From a virus, in IMG/VR virus record IMGVR_UViG_3300046474_000594, positions 1 to 41,154 of that record: DNA of 41,154 bases, one strand, 5' to 3'. Under the pieces are notes generated by a model. It worked only from the letters and a program-made list of their open reading frames with translations, was not told the origin of the DNA and searched no databases. Shown here in pieces: positions 19,507-25,043 of the stretch. Both the position numbers and the translations under genes were made by a program. Numbering within the stretch: the first letter of the stretch is position 1; every line of letters starts with the position of its first letter.

Positions 19507-20313
19507 TCAGTAGCGTCCCTTTAAATATTTGGTCACTTTGAACGGCTGAAATATGGGCCCGCTGCGAATGGCGTTCATCAGGTTCCAGTAGCAGACCTTA
19601 GCGAAAGGATCAGTTATCTCATCTGGGTACACGTATCCAAAACACGCCGGCTCTTGCGTTTCACTACTAATGCTACGCAGGTATTGGGGCCGCACGTAGG
19701 TATGGATGCCCCAACACAGCTCGTTTAAAAACTCGGCAAGTGTGCTTGAGTGATAAATTCCAATGTCGTGGTGAAATCGCTCGTAAACATCCTCTTGTGC
19801 AAGGACCGCTTCGTGGAGCTCGACATGAAGTCCGGCGGCATCCATAAAATCTTTCAACTCACCTGCGACCGTGATTGAACGAAGATAGTTGTGTTTGGAC
19901 AAATTGCCGCAGGTCTTAACGAGCCACAGTCTTGGAATATTAAGTGAAACCTGATGCTCGATGGATGCCAGCCATATTTCGATGATGACCTCTTCTTGTA
20001 ACCATGCTCGAAAGCGTTCTGCCGCTCGCTTTAATCGTGTTACCGACCGGCTGTGTTCAAAGCCTGGGGCATTTCCGATGTCAGCTAAAGCCTCTAAATA
20101 ACGCTTTTTGGGCACAGGAGCTTTGGCATCGGTCGGGGACAGGAAATCGACAAGCCCTATAAAAAAATAGTGCCTATGCACTGAGCTCGGGAACCACACA
20201 TTGCGGTCGGTGCCGCTGCCTTCCACTGAAAGCACTTCTTTGTTGAGTATCGAACCGATGGATTCGAGCGCTGCATGCAAAAAAATTGCTTCCTGCTCCC
20301 ATTTATTCAACAT
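19507..20313 (-). CDS. Unrecognised protein, cargo island gene 5
   Basis: 268 residues from the ATG at 20313, which overlaps the previous gene's stop region by 11 nt, so the two are coupled. Mostly helical. The segment RLWLVKTCGNLSKHNYLRS resembles the N-x-x-KH stretch of some HEPN-type abortive-infection proteins, and the C-terminal half has LNELCWGIHTYVRPQYL. No catalytic motif is certain. It is the last gene of the island, directly before late element C. Confidence 0.7.
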   Translation of the reverse strand: MLNKWEQEAIFLHAALESIGSILNKEVLSVEGSGTDRNVWFPSSVHRHYFFIGLVDFLSPTDAKAPVPKKRYLEALADIGNAPGFEHSRSVTRLKRAAERFRAWLQEEVIIEIWLASIEHQVSLNIPRLWLVKTCGNLSKHNYLRSITVAGELKDFMDAAGLHVELHEAVLAQEDVYERFHHDIGIYHSSTLAEFLNELCWGIHTYVRPQYLRSISSETQEPACFGYVYPDEITDPFAKVCYWNLMNAIRSGPIFQPFKVTKYLKGRY

Positions 20314-21097
20314 CGGACTTTTCGCCTGGATCGATCTGACTGTAAATCTCGCTTTGGTACTGGATGGGCGCGCCATTGAGTTCGTCTGCACACGCATTCT
20401 TGCGGTCCATGAGGGAATTGATCAACGTGCATGTCGAGTCAGGTAGGGGCGATTCTTGTGCAGCGGTGGCTAGGAGTACGATTACGGCGATTGCATAGTC
20501 CAGGCAGGCGATCAGGCCCGCCCCAGTCTTTGCGCCCCATCCGTAGAGGCAACCGAAGTTGAACTGGGTAAATTCCTCAAGATCCTCAAAACTTAAATGT
20601 CCGAGCATCGCCCGCGGATTGGGATGCGCTCCATAGTCTATCGCCGCTTCGTACAGCCCAAGGACATAGAATTCCAGGTCCGAATTGGAGCGGCCGATTA
20701 CTTTGGCTGCATCCTTCACTGCTGACGAAAACGTTCTCCTGCTCAGTCTAAGTGCTTCTTTGCTTTTGTGACGCTTGAGCCATACCTCAGCCAGTCCTTC
20801 ATTCTCGGTGGTTAGTAATGAATAGGCTGCAGATTCAAGCGATGTGCGCAGGCCAATTGGAACAGCAGCCGGATGCCCAGATATTGCCGTTCTTACAGCC
20901 GAAAGGAGTATGAAAAATGAATTTACAGCCAGATTCATTGAAACAGGATTCAACTGCTTTGAAGTCGAGAGCGCTTGTATATGGTCAACACACTCCTTCA
21001 GCAGCTTGTATGCATCCGGGTCCAATTGCCTGATCTCGGTTGCGATCTCATCTGCTGAGTCTAGATACCGCTGAAGATGATCGGAATTACTGCTCAT
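20303..21097 (-). CDS. Unrecognised helical protein, cargo island gene 4
   Basis: 264 residues. A mid segment (VPIGLRTSLESAAYSLLTTENEGLAEVWLKRH) resembles DUF5677/HEPN-clan proteins (R..LE.A). A hydrophobic stretch (LIACLDYAIAVIVLLATAA, about 200-220) could be a membrane helix or core helix. The start lies beyond a terminator, so genes 4 and 5 may form their own transcript. Overlap with gene 5 suggests a two-component unit. Lower GC than phage genes. Confidence 0.7.
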   Translation of the reverse strand: MSSNSDHLQRYLDSADEIATEIRQLDPDAYKLLKECVDHIQALSTSKQLNPVSMNLAVNSFFILLSAVRTAISGHPAAVPIGLRTSLESAAYSLLTTENEGLAEVWLKRHKSKEALRLSRRTFSSAVKDAAKVIGRSNSDLEFYVLGLYEAAIDYGAHPNPRAMLGHLSFEDLEEFTQFNFGCLYGWGAKTGAGLIACLDYAIAVIVLLATAAQESPLPDSTCTLINSLMDRKNACADELNGAPIQYQSEIYSQIDPGEKSDVE

Positions 21098-21154
21098 GGC
21101 CTGGGTTTCCGTTGAGCTATGTTGGAAGCGACACAGGGGGGCACTTTAAGGAAA

Positions 21155-21172
21155 GCGGCTCGAATGAGCCGC
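21155..21172 (-). terminator. Terminator between island genes 3 and 4
   Basis: 7-bp stem GCGGCTC / GAGCCGC with an ATTC loop, followed by TTTCCTT on the minus strand, about 12 nt beyond the stop of the 131-residue gene. Confidence 0.65.
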
Positions 21173-21184
21173 AAACGCTTTTGC

Positions 21185-21580
21185 TTAGCTCTTCGCCCAG
21201 CGATCGGTGGCGATACCTGCGCCGACACTCAGGTGTTCCATATGGTGATAGTGATCGGACTGCTCATCGCCTTTTTCGACCATGATCACGTTGCAGATGA
21301 AATTGCCGTAGCCGTAAATCAACTGAAGAATTTCGGTGATGATTGCTTCTAGCTTTTGATCTGCCGGATCGGTTGTCGCGATCTCAACACAGTACACGCA
21401 TGCTTTGTCGTCGTAGTTGATTCTGACGATTCCTGCTTTCGAGCCTTTGTGGTCCAGCGTTTTAGCAGCAACCGACGCGATAAAGCGATGTTCTTCATCA
21501 GGGAAGCTGGCCCGAGCCTCTAATAAGACGCGGTGCTTCCCGATGGTGAACCACTCAGAATGAAAACCTTCAACTGACAT
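21185..21580 (-). CDS. Unrecognised 131-residue protein, cargo island gene 3
   Basis: Soluble alpha/beta-looking protein with no signal peptide. Notable residues are CVYC near position 62 and a His-rich stretch SDHYHHMEH near 108. AAGGAG lies 6 nt before the ATG. It has a terminator behind it and about 225 nt of non-coding sequence in front, so it is probably transcribed alone. No family recognised. Confidence 0.65.
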   Translation of the reverse strand: MSVEGFHSEWFTIGKHRVLLEARASFPDEEHRFIASVAAKTLDHKGSKAGIVRINYDDKACVYCVEIATTDPADQKLEAIITEILQLIYGYGNFICNVIMVEKGDEQSDHYHHMEHLSVGAGIATDRWAKS

Positions 21581-21805
21581 CTGAATCTCCTTATAAAATT
21601 GGACAGCGAAAGCTTTATAAAGCCTTTAGGGCGTGATTGCGATGGTTGGTTGAATAGGCATGGCAGGGAGATGGGAATTGGGCGTTGAGTCTCTTACAGA
21701 CATCACCCAATTTAAGGTCGTTGGCTCCATCTGCGTATCGGTTCTGAGACGGCATCCGAGATGTACCCCATGTTCGCTGGAGCCTGTGTGCTCAGGATCA
21801 CCATT
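21581..21805. other. Non-coding stretch between island genes 2 and 3
   Basis: AT-richer spacer. On the minus strand CTTTATAAAG and TTTTATAA lie just upstream of the AAGGAG of gene 3 and could hold its -10 box; no clear -35 was seen. Confidence 0.35.
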
Positions 21806-22690
21806 TTACTTTTTCTTAATGAAGTACGGTGCCGCCTGAGCACACCACTTTTTGTACAGTCTGCTGTGTAAAGCGTCTGAACGGTCCGCAAACCCATGCA
21901 TCACCATGTCGGGTGTATACACGGTGTGTGGATTTGGAAACAGCACCTGCGTTGCTGATGATAGGCTGCCAACGCTACAGGCCATCTGGATCATTCCTGG
22001 AAGAGATGAACAGTTCCACCTGAAAAGTGGTGACCCCATGAGCATCGACAGTAGTTTCAGAATGTTCTGGTGCCTGACCTTTTTCGTGAGGGGATTCGTG
22101 CCTGGGCTGTGCTGGAAGTACCAGCAGAATTCGTGAATCACCTCGCCTGTCAATGGATTGCGCAGTCCAGCAACGGCCTCATAAGGGACATTTGAGGCCC
22201 GAGTGCCACTGGACATGTGAAGCCCGAAAGCTTCATCGGTAAAAACTCTGCAGCCTTTACCAAGTTTTTCGAACTCGACTGCTTTTGTAGCGGCCTCACC
22301 AAGTACGAATTGACCGAGGGACTCCGCTACGCGATTTGGCTCGACAATGTCCCCGTAGGCAATTCCGCCTCGACACAGCAGACCGGCCCCTACGGATGTC
22401 ATCATCATTTCTTGAGCAGCCATGGCGACCGCCAAGTGGTCATCCGACCAGATGAAAGCGCAGTCCGACAGCTGAGCAATTTTCACGGCCCGGTGCTTTT
22501 TCTTGATCTTGGCGAGGCAGGAGCGGAACTTCATCAACAGCTTCGCGCACAGCACATGCTCGTTGAAATCAGACCTTCGCGTGATACCCCAGGCGTCGAA
22601 ATCCTGGCTTGTCAGCTCAACCTTCTTCCTTGTAAGCGCACCAATCCCGAGCATATCTACAAAAAAAACCGCGCCTTTGTACTGCCGCAT
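21806..22690 (-). CDS. Class III nucleotide-cyclase-like protein (Pycsar cyclase-like), cargo island gene 2
   Basis: 294 residues. The first 160 carry, in order, the landmarks of a class III cyclase catalytic domain: FFVDMLG with a metal-binding Asp at 12; KIAQLSDCAFIW with Asp76 (compare the K-I-x4-DC of adenylate cyclases); CRGGIAYGDIVE (106-117), equivalent to the RxGI..G.V stretch; and VLGEAATKAVEFEKLGKGCRVFTDEAFG. The short soluble single-domain form with an N-terminal DxLG motif is typical of Pycsar anti-phage cyclases, which make cCMP or cUMP. The base specificity cannot be read here. No cyclic-nucleotide-binding effector is evident next to it. Confidence 0.7.
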   Translation of the reverse strand: MRQYKGAVFFVDMLGIGALTRKKVELTSQDFDAWGITRRSDFNEHVLCAKLLMKFRSCLAKIKKKHRAVKIAQLSDCAFIWSDDHLAVAMAAQEMMMTSVGAGLLCRGGIAYGDIVEPNRVAESLGQFVLGEAATKAVEFEKLGKGCRVFTDEAFGLHMSSGTRASNVPYEAVAGLRNPLTGEVIHEFCWYFQHSPGTNPLTKKVRHQNILKLLSMLMGSPLFRWNCSSLPGMIQMACSVGSLSSATQVLFPNPHTVYTPDMVMHGFADRSDALHSRLYKKWCAQAAPYFIKKK

Positions 22691-22821
22691 CTCAATTTCC
22701 CTTTTTGTCTACGAGCCAATTCGTTGTAGCGCTTTGCCCTTGTCACCAATGTATTCAAAAGCTTTGAAAACGTATGCGCTGGCAAGAGCGTTGTTCTAAC
22801 GGTATCTGCCAGGGCCAAAGG

Positions 22822-23709
22822 TCATTTCGTAAAGACGCTTTTTCGAGTGCCCGGAAATCCTCCATCCGCTTCCATTTGCGCCGCCATGCCGGCATCACTG
22901 ACTCTGCGAAGTGAGGATGCGGCGATGAATTGCACGTCGAGTGCGAGACCGACGAGGTCTAGTCGGGTAAGGCCGGAGTCGGCGTATCGAGTGGCGACGT
23001 AATTCGGCAAACGCTGAGCTGCTTCTAACAGCCGCTCATCATCATTGTGCGGATAGGCCGCAACGAGTTCCTCAGCTATATCCTTGTGACGATGGTTCAA
23101 GCCCTTGATTACTTTTTCCGTCATACCCGACTGATAAAGCGCGCCTTTCATGGCTAGTTCAGCCACGAGGCAGATGGATTGGATGATGGAGGTTGAGATG
23201 TAGCTGCTGCTCAAGATGTTGGCGACGTCTTGGAGATTTGATGCTGCTTGCTTCCATGAACTCCGAGCCAGGGGCACCGCGTCGTGTTGGGCATGGTCGA
23301 TCCCCATGATGAAATCGTGAATATCGGCAAATGCATAGGCGGAGCGTGCAGCGATATTGTGATCGTTTCTGCACCATTGCGACCACTCAGCGTGGCTGGC
23401 GAAGTCCAGCCCCTGATCGACAGATAAGGATATGTCTCCGAAGGTGACACAAAGGGTCACTTTCCGGACTTGATCAATTGACGCCGCGAGCCCGACGCCC
23501 ATTCCCGGCCATGTTGTTTCGACATCTGGGAATAAACGGGCGTACGCCCGTTCGATCTCTTCTATTTCGGGATTACCGCCTGGCCTCTCGTTAAATCGAG
23601 GGCCCAGGATTTCGAGGGCTGCGTGGAAGGGTCTTGCATGGAACCGGACTCCTTCTTGGGCAAATTTTGTATCGAGCCGAATAATGTCTTCATCGGTGAA
23701 ATTCGCCAT
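22822..23709 (-). CDS. HEPN-like helical protein, cargo island gene 1
   Basis: 295 residues, first gene of the minus-strand island. The C-terminal half (AELAMKGALYQSGMTEKVIKGLNHRHKDIAEELV ... NYVATRYADSGLTRLDLVGLALDAQ-like) has the pattern of HEPN proteins (lone helix with ELxxKxxL, then GHxxxxL-like, then a Y-x-x-RY helix). A canonical R-x4-6-H ribonuclease motif is not evident. Start ATG at 23709 has only a weak ribosome site. Followed after 131 nt by the cyclase-like gene. Confidence 0.6.
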   Translation of the reverse strand: MANFTDEDIIRLDTKFAQEGVRFHARPFHAALEILGPRFNERPGGNPEIEEIERAYARLFPDVETTWPGMGVGLAASIDQVRKVTLCVTFGDISLSVDQGLDFASHAEWSQWCRNDHNIAARSAYAFADIHDFIMGIDHAQHDAVPLARSSWKQAASNLQDVANILSSSYISTSIIQSICLVAELAMKGALYQSGMTEKVIKGLNHRHKDIAEELVAAYPHNDDERLLEAAQRLPNYVATRYADSGLTRLDLVGLALDVQFIAASSLRRVSDAGMAAQMEADGGFPGTRKSVFTK

Positions 23710-24065
23710 CGTGTCCGTGCCTGTGCGTTGGTTTTAGATGTGGATACTACGGCAGCTGGTGGGGCTCAATCGAGTTATCGGATGGCTCATTGAGGGGAAT
23801 CGCAGTTTGGTCCTAAGGTCGGAGTTGATAGCTTCGCGGGCAAGCCTCGCTCCAACAGGATGATGTGTAGGTCGACGTATCGGGGGGCGGCTTGGTATTG
23901 AGCATGATATGAATTGTGGCAAACGCGAGGGACCGGTCTCTATCCTTTGAGTGAAATTTCCGAGACCCTGCGGCAGGGGTTGTGCCGGGGTATCTGGGTC
24001 TTTAGCCTGCTGCCGTCGTTGCCAATTCAACGGCCAGGCGTGGAAACCTGACTTTTCTAGCATGC
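23710..24065. other. Non-coding stretch with a REP-like sequence and upstream part of a structured leader
   Basis: No gene supported. A REP-like sequence (GCTTCGCGGGCAAGCCTCGCTCCAACAG) lies at about 23829-23860. From about 23940 the sequence is of the leader type, with small hairpins (CCCTGCGGCAGGG; CAGG...CCTG). The open frame that runs through it on the minus strand reads the REP and the palindromes and is not a gene. The promoter of the plus-strand gene at 24211 must lie here. Confidence 0.5.
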
Positions 24066-24068
24066 AAC

Positions 24069-24205
24069 AGCTCCTTTTATGGCAGCTGTGTGCAGGCAGA
24101 CGCTCGTCTGGCCGGTAGCTAGAGAACCGGTTTTCCACCCTGTTCACAGCTGCCACCCTTTTTCCCGCTTTCCGGGTACAGGGTGGCTCCTAGCAGTAAG
24201 GAGCT
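24069..24205 (+). promoter_or_regulatory. Structured 5' leader with alternative helices, SD sequestered
   Basis: Pairings seen directly: AGCTCCTT (24069-24076) with AAGGAGCT (24198-24205), which is the ribosome site; GGCAGCTGTG (24081-24090) with CACAGCTGCC (24145-24154); CAGAC/GTCTG (24097-24110); CCGGT/ACCGG (24112-24130); CCCG/CGGG (24164-24176). ACAGGGTGG (24178-24186) can pair with CCACCCTGT (24135-24143) or, partly, CCACCCT (24153-24159), which excludes the central stem. GCTCCT (24186-24191) can also pair with AGGAGC (24199-24204). Two alternative anti-SD sequences and competing stems look like a riboswitch, thermosensor or attenuator. Confidence 0.55.
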
Positions 24206-24210
24206 AAGTG

Positions 24211-24447
24211 ATGACTCAAACCCCATTCGATTCTTTTCTATCAAACAACGCTGAGCCTATTAGCCTTGAGGCGGCGCTGGTGCGTGCGGGCGATTTGTTG
24301 CGCTGCGCTTCGGCGACGGCTTATGAGAGCGGTGACCAGTTGACCGGTGAGAAGCGAGATTTGGCGTTTTCGGTCGTGCATCTGGTGGATATGGCGCGGG
24401 TTATGGTGGAGCGCTCGCTTGTGTGTGTTGAGGGGCGTCAGGCCTGA
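24211..24447 (+). CDS. DUF3077-type small Pseudomonas protein
   Basis: 78 residues; the ATG at 24211 follows AAGGAG by 7 nt, with a GTG one codon earlier as a less likely start. ISLEAALVRAGDLLRCASATAYESGD ... DLAFSVVHLVDMARVMVERSL matches the small helical DUF3077 family found in many Pseudomonas genomes, of unknown function. It is on the opposite strand to the late genes and comes with chromosomal REP sequences on both sides, so it appears to be captured host DNA. Confidence 0.7.
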   Translation: MTQTPFDSFLSNNAEPISLEAALVRAGDLLRCASATAYESGDQLTGEKRDLAFSVVHLVDMARVMVERSLVCVEGRQA

Positions 24448-24467
24448 GTCAGGTGGTGTGGCGGTTG

Positions 24468-24560
24468 CTGCCGCTGCGCGGCAGATCGTCGACAAGTCAA
24501 CTCCTACGGCCTTCGGCCAGAATCAAGAGCTTTGCGGGCAAGCCTCGCTCCAACAGTTTT
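24468..24560. repeat. Hairpin and REP-like sequence after the DUF3077 gene
   Basis: CTGCCGC-tgc-GCGGCAG (24468-24484) is a 7-bp stem 20 nt after the stop and may terminate the gene. Next comes CTCCTACGGCCTTCGGCCAGAATCAA (shared with 13828-13853), then GCGGGCAAGCCTCGCTCCAACAG, the same REP-like text as at 23838-23860. Confidence 0.65.
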
Positions 24561-24572
24561 AGGCCTGGGCGT

Positions 24573-25043
24573 TTATGGCGCTGCGTGCTTGAGGTGCGAC
24601 AGGGCCAGGTCGAGGATGGCTTCGTGTGCTTCGGGTTGCAGGTTGCCTTCTTCGTCCATGGGCAGGTAGGGCCTGGCCGGGATGTCGCCCCACAGGTGGG
24701 GGAAGTCGGTTTGTTTGCCGCCAAACTGCATCATGGCGGCGTAGGGTTTGTTGCTGCCGACCAGGGCGCTGTTGCGGGTCGCCTGGCTGGTGATGGACGC
24801 CGCTAGCCCTGCTGCGCTCAGTTGGAGCATTTTGCCGGGCCAGTGATGTGTTTCAGTACGACGTTCAATGGTGGCGTCTGACAGGCCTGTCCATTCTGGG
24901 CGGCCTTCTTCTTCGAAATTTTCTTCGGTTTGGTTCAGCAGCTCCGCGGCGATGCCGCGCATGAGGGGCGCGAGGTCGCCCACGGCCCATTCGATTTCTT
25001 GAAGGGCTTGCTGCAAACGTTCGTTGATTTCAAGAGTGATCAT
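24573..25043 (-). CDS. Virion morphogenesis protein (Mu gpG-like)
   Basis: 156 residues. EWTGLSDATIERRTETHHWPGKMLQLSAAGLAASI and YAAMMQFGGKQTDFPHLWGDIPARPYLP match the phage virion morphogenesis family (Mu G, gp31), involved in the tail or head-tail joint. Last gene of the lysis-packaging block; the cargo island separates it from protease I, which follows it directly in Mu. Confidence 0.88.
   Translation of the reverse strand: MITLEINERLQQALQEIEWAVGDLAPLMRGIAAELLNQTEENFEEEGRPEWTGLSDATIERRTETHHWPGKMLQLSAAGLAASITSQATRNSALVGSNKPYAAMMQFGGKQTDFPHLWGDIPARPYLPMDEEGNLQPEAHEAILDLALSHLKHAAP

Follow-up and report, generated by a model that had tools for sequence, protein, structure and literature searches.

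The leader of a small gene in a 41,154-base virus record (IMG/VR record IMGVR_UViG_3300046474_000594, analysed over its whole length and hereafter called the window) is, with near certainty as to its RNA class, a C4 antisense RNA placed in front of a non-classical cargo gene, which encodes a DUF6124 protein. Taken as a whole, the locus is very probably an antisense repression module of the C4 type that a Mu-like Pseudomonas phage carries as cargo.

C4 is known from phages P1 and P7 and has been predicted in many Proteobacteria (PMC2864571). Most of what is known of it concerns phage immunity; here, it precedes most members of a large Pseudomonas family, and its presence upstream gives the DUF6124/DUF3077 family a regulatory logic. 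Our survey of the openly licensed literature returned no mention of DUF6124, a single, unrelated mention of DUF3077 and no link between C4 and either family; within that literature, the genus-wide set of C4-DUF6124/DUF3077 modules seems undescribed so far.

Identification and fold of the C4 RNA

An Rfam scan of the whole window gave exactly two matches at gathering score, RF01695 and RF03163, both at this leader. The former, the C4 antisense RNA, lies at positions 24075-24160 of the plus strand with 70.6 bits (cut-off 45, E = 6e-12) and covers model positions 1-87 of 87; the latter, the c4-a1b1 element, occupies 24002-24054 of the same strand with 50.1 bits (cut-off 46.7). A permissive scan of 23700-24600, with E up to 1, added just a sub-threshold match to isrK over the same stretch. 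The leader thus belongs to a known antisense class, C4, accompanied by its a1/b1 element, where the first-pass annotation, made from the sequence alone, had recognized no known class.

In the minimum-energy fold of 24075-24160, a basal stem encloses a tetraloop hairpin, a second hairpin with loop b' (about 24114-24127) and a bulge a' (about 24131-24144), and the same arrangement is found when 24069-24205 is folded. The latter stretch reaches -65.3 kcal/mol against a mean of -46.1 kcal/mol for 200 dinucleotide shuffles (z = -5.0, with none of the 200 as good), and its structure therefore exceeds chance. The 10-bp central stem enclosing two hairpins that had been described earlier is exact and corresponds to the C4 body.

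Elements surrounding the C4 RNA

The element is larger than the extent first assigned to it, as it starts at the promoter and takes in a1 and b1. A sigma70-type promoter is located at 23980-24008 on the plus strand, with a -35 box TTGTGC (23980-23985), a 17-nt spacer and a -10 box TAGCCT (24003-24008), from which transcription is predicted to start at about 24015. Promoter scanning across the whole upstream region was uninformative, and the signal emerged once the search was anchored on the a1 hairpin: the pattern TTG-N17/18-TAnnnT occurs at a fixed distance 5' of this hairpin in 97 of 118 modules, and in none on the reverse strand.

Downstream of the promoter, still on the plus strand, the a1 target (about 24037-24049) is complementary to a' of C4 (-19.9 kcal/mol; own C4 ranked 2 of 151), and the b1 target TTTTCTAGCATGC (24053-24065) is complementary to loop b' (-13.4 kcal/mol; own C4 ranked 18 of 151). 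Past C4, the a2 target ACAGGGTGG (24178-24186, plus strand) pairs with C4 positions 24136-24144 (-19.0 kcal/mol; own C4 ranked 1 of 151). It was this segment that had been noted as able to form a 9-bp helix incompatible with the central stem; we identify this helix as the conserved a'-a2 antisense contact, an assignment that covariation supports.

The b2-Shine-Dalgarno region (24186-24203, plus strand) is predicted to fold into a local hairpin, GGCTCCT...AGGAGC, that sequesters the Shine-Dalgarno sequence (24198-24203). The local anti-Shine-Dalgarno segment pointed out at 24186-24191 proves to be a feature of the family, since local folding pairs the Shine-Dalgarno sequence in 120 of 135 modules. 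The family shows strong b'-b2 complementarity (z = -29.4), but in the window copy this contact is weak, at rank 42 of 151. The window copy also lacks the spacer that long modules have between b1 and C4, its a1-to-C4 distance being that of the short class, and the terminator-like site that 22 of 118 modules have between b1 and C4 is missing from it. Given the weak b'-b2 contact and the missing spacer, masking of the Shine-Dalgarno sequence in the window copy may be due chiefly to a'-a2 and the local hairpin.

Most C4 RNAs are predicted to fit their own targets best

For 151 modules, we predicted duplex energies, pairing each C4 segment with its own targets as well as with those of every other module. 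Row and column means were removed, because ranking single contacts within genomes is confounded by base composition. The own-versus-other z values were -15.9 for a'-a2, -29.4 for b'-b2, -24.0 for a'-a1 and -16.6 for b'-b1, while the reversed-sequence controls gave -1.2, -4.6, -4.5 and -0.9, respectively; as related modules are not independent and the energies are predicted, these values are meaningful relative to the controls, and since the controls are not all zero and reach -4.6, a small share of the signal is not base pairing. The own C4 was top-ranked for its targets in 31/36, 21/25, 18/26, 11/11, 9/12, 8/8 and 7/7 modules of seven genomes. In the genome with 36 copies, all 36 combinations of a' and b' are distinct, and about 6% of the other C4 RNAs are predicted to bind a given a2 plus b2 as well as the own C4 does. 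With its targets taken together, the window's own C4 comes first among the 151; in the converse ranking of targets for this C4, its own comes third among the 151, which leaves room for some cross-talk.

The covariation analysis that the first-pass annotation had proposed, carried out on the Pseudomonas modules, was strongly positive. When all column pairs of a sequence-only alignment were scanned, the best covarying antiparallel run was a'-a2. Between the near-identical orthologues L019 and L020, one a'-a2 base pair has changed with compensation, CTACTAAC/GTTTAGTAG versus CGACTAAC/GTTTAGTCG.

These results bear on the first interpretation of the leader, namely a riboswitch of a new class that would respond to a ligand or to temperature and whose Shine-Dalgarno sequence would be hidden by a long-range helix between 24069-24076, in the 5' flank of C4 on the plus strand, and 24198-24205. 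The 8-bp pairing is indeed exact (-12.5 kcal/mol) and the alternative folds are mutually exclusive, as such a switch would have it. Across modules, however, the helix shows an own-versus-other z of -0.6 and reaches 8 bp in just 2 of 151 cases, the window included, which rules it out as a conserved element; we treat it as probably due to chance or specific to the window copy. The conserved contacts change in sequence yet keep their complementarity, which is the mark of antisense pairing and the opposite of a ligand pocket, and the full-length C4 match comes with its a1/b1 partner. No riboswitch family was detected at gathering score in the window, nor at E up to 1 in 23700-24600. On the strength of the Rfam matches to C4 and a1/b1 and of the non-conservation of the helix, we reject the riboswitch reading, which we find hardly credible. 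What stands is a structured leader in which mutually exclusive helices govern access to the Shine-Dalgarno sequence of a small gene, the variable helix being an RNA-RNA pairing that differs between modules.

The DUF6124 gene and its phage context

The ORF at 24211-24447 (plus strand) encodes a protein of 78 amino acids that matches PF19619 (DUF6124) with 51.7 bits (cut-off 27); its start codon is probably the ATG at 24211, judged by the distance from the Shine-Dalgarno sequence. The gene had been assigned to DUF3077, an assignment that we discarded since PF11275 gives no match in the window; the DUF6124 and DUF3077 profiles overlap in relatives. Two helices (residues 19-42 and 46-77) are predicted to form a hairpin, as in the AlphaFold2 model (mean pLDDT 86). 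A structure search with this model returned no match at E <= 0.001, the best hits (E = 0.58) being generic two-helix hairpins, and searches of NCBIfam, PHROGs and PADLOC with the protein gave no match. Among eight chromosomal relatives, the median dN/dS is about 0.11, which indicates that the protein is maintained by purifying selection. Many C4-controlled proteins, including some that are otherwise unalike, share an N-terminus resembling M(F/I/L/V)K-x-TP-(N/D)-PP, which may reflect an RNA-level constraint near the start codon.

The window contains Mu-like portal, F and tail-completion genes. On one side, the C4-DUF6124 module is flanked by a virion morphogenesis gene (24573-25043) and on the other, past further accessory genes, by the head maturation protease gene, both on the opposite strand. 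DUF6124 is the sole gene downstream of C4 on its strand, the next gene being Phage_tail_S on the other strand. The module is cargo amid the structural genes of a Mu-like phage. Between the protease gene and the module, the accessory genes of the region 19507-23709 (20303-21097, 21185-21580, 21806-22690, 22822-23709 and 19507-20397, all on the minus strand) were without a match in Pfam, NCBIfam or PADLOC wherever they were scanned; for one of them there is a PHROG match, to a group of unknown function.

In 3 of 79 related viral contigs, all from Mu-like phages (L340:5549-6045, L286:5815-6308 and L334:5286-5783, minus strand), the same cargo region contains a C4 with a DUF6124 gene behind it, and the proteins there are longer, at 119-120 amino acids. 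At the module site, many of the inspected relatives continue directly with an ORF of protease size and others have different genes; in a sequenced phage, another opposite-strand gene takes the place of the module. No counterpart of the DUF6124 protein was detected by tblastn among 50,697 phage records or on three Pseudomonas plasmids, and a DNA pattern scan of the viral contigs with the a1 hairpin of the window matched nothing. The first matches to the protein in the viral collection (L007 and L002-L006) lie at or near contig ends, all with a C4, and are probably host DNA flanking prophages. The phage copies suggest that modules pass between chromosomes and phages.

C4-led modules across Pseudomonas

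Relatives of the window protein were found at 18 loci, all in Pseudomonas, 15 of which have a C4 upstream. Three DUF6124-like genes devoid of an upstream C4 (L023, L024 and L025) lie near sRNA genes, CrcZ for the first two and PrrF for the third. C4 is present in at least 276 of 299 Pseudomonas genomes, at most 14 candidates having been scored per genome, and deeper scoring of 13 genomes gave 2 to 36 copies each. In these 13 genomes, 99 of 114 DUF6124/DUF3077 genes are preceded by a C4 on the same strand at a distance of up to 1 kb and none by a C4 on the opposite strand, a proportion that may not apply genus-wide as the genomes were picked for holding relatives of the window protein; the other 15 genes have no C4. 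Conversely, a DUF6124/DUF3077 gene comes next after 107 of the 150 C4 RNAs listed for the 13 genomes. The start codon of Pseudomonas modules lies a median of 50 nt past C4 (10-90% range, 46-54), as in the window (about 50 nt). Among 185 genomes sampled across the class, the Pseudomonas centre aside, C4 was found in only six (1 to 3 copies) and DUF6124 in none. For one chromosomal module, a search for the empty site showed flanks that were conserved but rearranged in relatives, with no clean gain or loss.

The chromosomal C4 RNAs might instead act mainly in trans on unrelated messages or incoming phages, as proposed for Acinetobacter baumannii (PMC5320573), the neighbouring gene being incidental. 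The C4 of P1/P7 does work in trans, and the A. baumannii C4-like RNAs are described there as abundant and seemingly processed. Yet the flanking own targets are the best fit in most Pseudomonas modules, and the same gene family, under purifying selection, follows C4; we therefore consider such a use of the chromosomal copies very unlikely.

Proposed mechanism

By analogy with P1/P7, our confidence in a C4-mediated repression of DUF6124 is high, and most likely a processed C4 would repress DUF6124 translation, with a burst of synthesis upon relief. A transcript starting near 24015 would carry the a1 and b1 targets first, then C4, and continue into the DUF6124 gene. C4 would be excised from it, a step performed by RNase P in P1/P7, and could then act in trans, a' pairing with a1 and a2 while the partners of b' would be b1 and, for most modules, also b2 at the Shine-Dalgarno sequence. 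Such pairing is expected to block ribosome loading on the DUF6124 message, so that the gene would be off wherever C4 has built up. Entry of the module into a cell devoid of the matching C4, or a drop in C4, would set off a burst of DUF6124 production; this immunity-like behaviour, too, is modelled on P1/P7. The chromosomal modules of Pseudomonas would behave likewise, each with its own loop sequences, and we propose that copies would for this reason not silence one another.

Other genes led by C4 and the role of the protein

Some Pseudomonas C4 RNAs that are not followed by DUF6124/DUF3077 (G010:C18, G008:C7, G003:C4 and others) lead Bro-N proteins of about 172-183 amino acids, and further ones lead several unnamed families of small proteins (about 67-107 amino acids). 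In a different gammaproteobacterial genome (locus L244), a C4 at 1501-1583 is followed at the customary spacing, about 51 nt downstream, by an ORF of the SymE toxin family (PF08845, 48.8 bits, cut-off 29). Two more C4 RNAs of the same genome (L241 and L246) precede weakly CsrA-like proteins that fall below Pfam's cut-off. The range of genes led by C4 suggests that it is a portable silencing element for small effectors.

Confidence in any function for DUF6124 itself is low, and two roles can be weighed. In the first, the locus would resemble a type I toxin-antitoxin system in which DUF6124 would act as a toxin or growth inhibitor and C4 as its privately matched RNA antitoxin, each copy being self-contained; the RNA mechanism would be the same as in our preferred reading and only the role of the protein would differ. 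The many privately paired copies agree with this role, as do the SymE type I toxin family gene preceded by C4 in another gammaproteobacterial genome, the C4-controlled icd of P1, annotated as an inhibitor of cell division, and the related isrK locus, whose release is toxic via AntQ (PMC4825925). However, DUF6124 has no PADLOC match and no significant structural match, and, in contrast to classical type I antitoxins, C4 shares a transcript with its target. We consider this role possible, if rather unlikely.

In the second, DUF6124/DUF3077 proteins would be phage-domesticated, antirepressor- or regulator-like proteins, silenced by C4 when resident and acting on entering phages or mobile elements. 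Such a role is in line with the Bro-N (antirepressor-associated) proteins that C4 precedes in the same Pseudomonas genomes and elsewhere (L243), as it does ant in P1, and with modules travelling as cargo of Mu-like phages. The window protein, however, has no DNA-binding or antirepressor domain, and its two-helix hairpin is uninformative, which leaves this role doubtful as well.

Returning to the C4 repression module, we propose, tentatively and with somewhat less than even confidence, that Pseudomonas holds a large insulated set of C4 RNAs (up to 36 per genome where counted fully) which diverged together with their targets, and that DUF6124/DUF3077 proteins are the payload of a genus-wide family of self-silencing, entry-sensing modules, also borne by phages, and act as toxins restrained by RNA or as anti-element effectors. 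Private pairs of antisense RNA and target that coexist in a genome constitute a natural collection of orthogonal RNA regulators, and the C4 sets of Pseudomonas lend themselves to the study of how paralogous antisense pairs escape cross-talk.

Comparison with P1/P7, isrK and Acinetobacter C4 systems

The P1 record annotates a1, b1, C4, a2 and b2, with a2 right after C4, b2 near the start codon of icd, and icd beginning 51 nt past C4; the P1 bulge CTGTCAA is complementary to a1 and a2, and the hairpin loop TCACTAAC to b1 and b2. The window shares with the P1/P7 system (c4-icd-ant, immI) the fold, the upstream a1/b1, the a2 directly downstream, the promoter before a1, a start codon about 50 nt past C4 and the complementarity of a' and b' to the targets. 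The loops of P1 and P7 differ and confer separate specificities (PMC5320573, PMC12197685), as would those of the Pseudomonas modules. Unlike in P1/P7, the window C4 controls DUF6124 alone with no icd-ant downstream, and the locus is therefore not an immunity operon of the P1 type; it is carried as cargo within the late gene region of a Mu-like phage, its b2 is weak, and many chromosomal copies exist in the genus.

The leader of the isrK locus of Salmonella Gifsy-1 (RF01394) opens with an a1b1-like element. The window matches RF01394 with 33.7 bits over 24015-24080 (E = 2e-5), below the cut-off of 50, and membership in this family was hence not retained. IsrK ends at a terminator, and this short RNA activates a long one (PMC4825925), whereas in the window nothing resembling a terminator separates b1 from C4.

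In A. baumannii, 21 related C4-like RNAs have been described as highly expressed and seemingly cleaved at a GGW motif (PMC5320573); GG is likewise found at the start of the window C4 stem (ATGGC), as at the cleavage sites reported there. These Group 1 C4-like sRNAs resemble the Pseudomonas set in their many copies per genome and variable a' loops. The parts of PMC5320573 consulted name no own target gene for them, whereas the Pseudomonas C4 RNAs are each paired with their own downstream gene, drawn from a single protein family.
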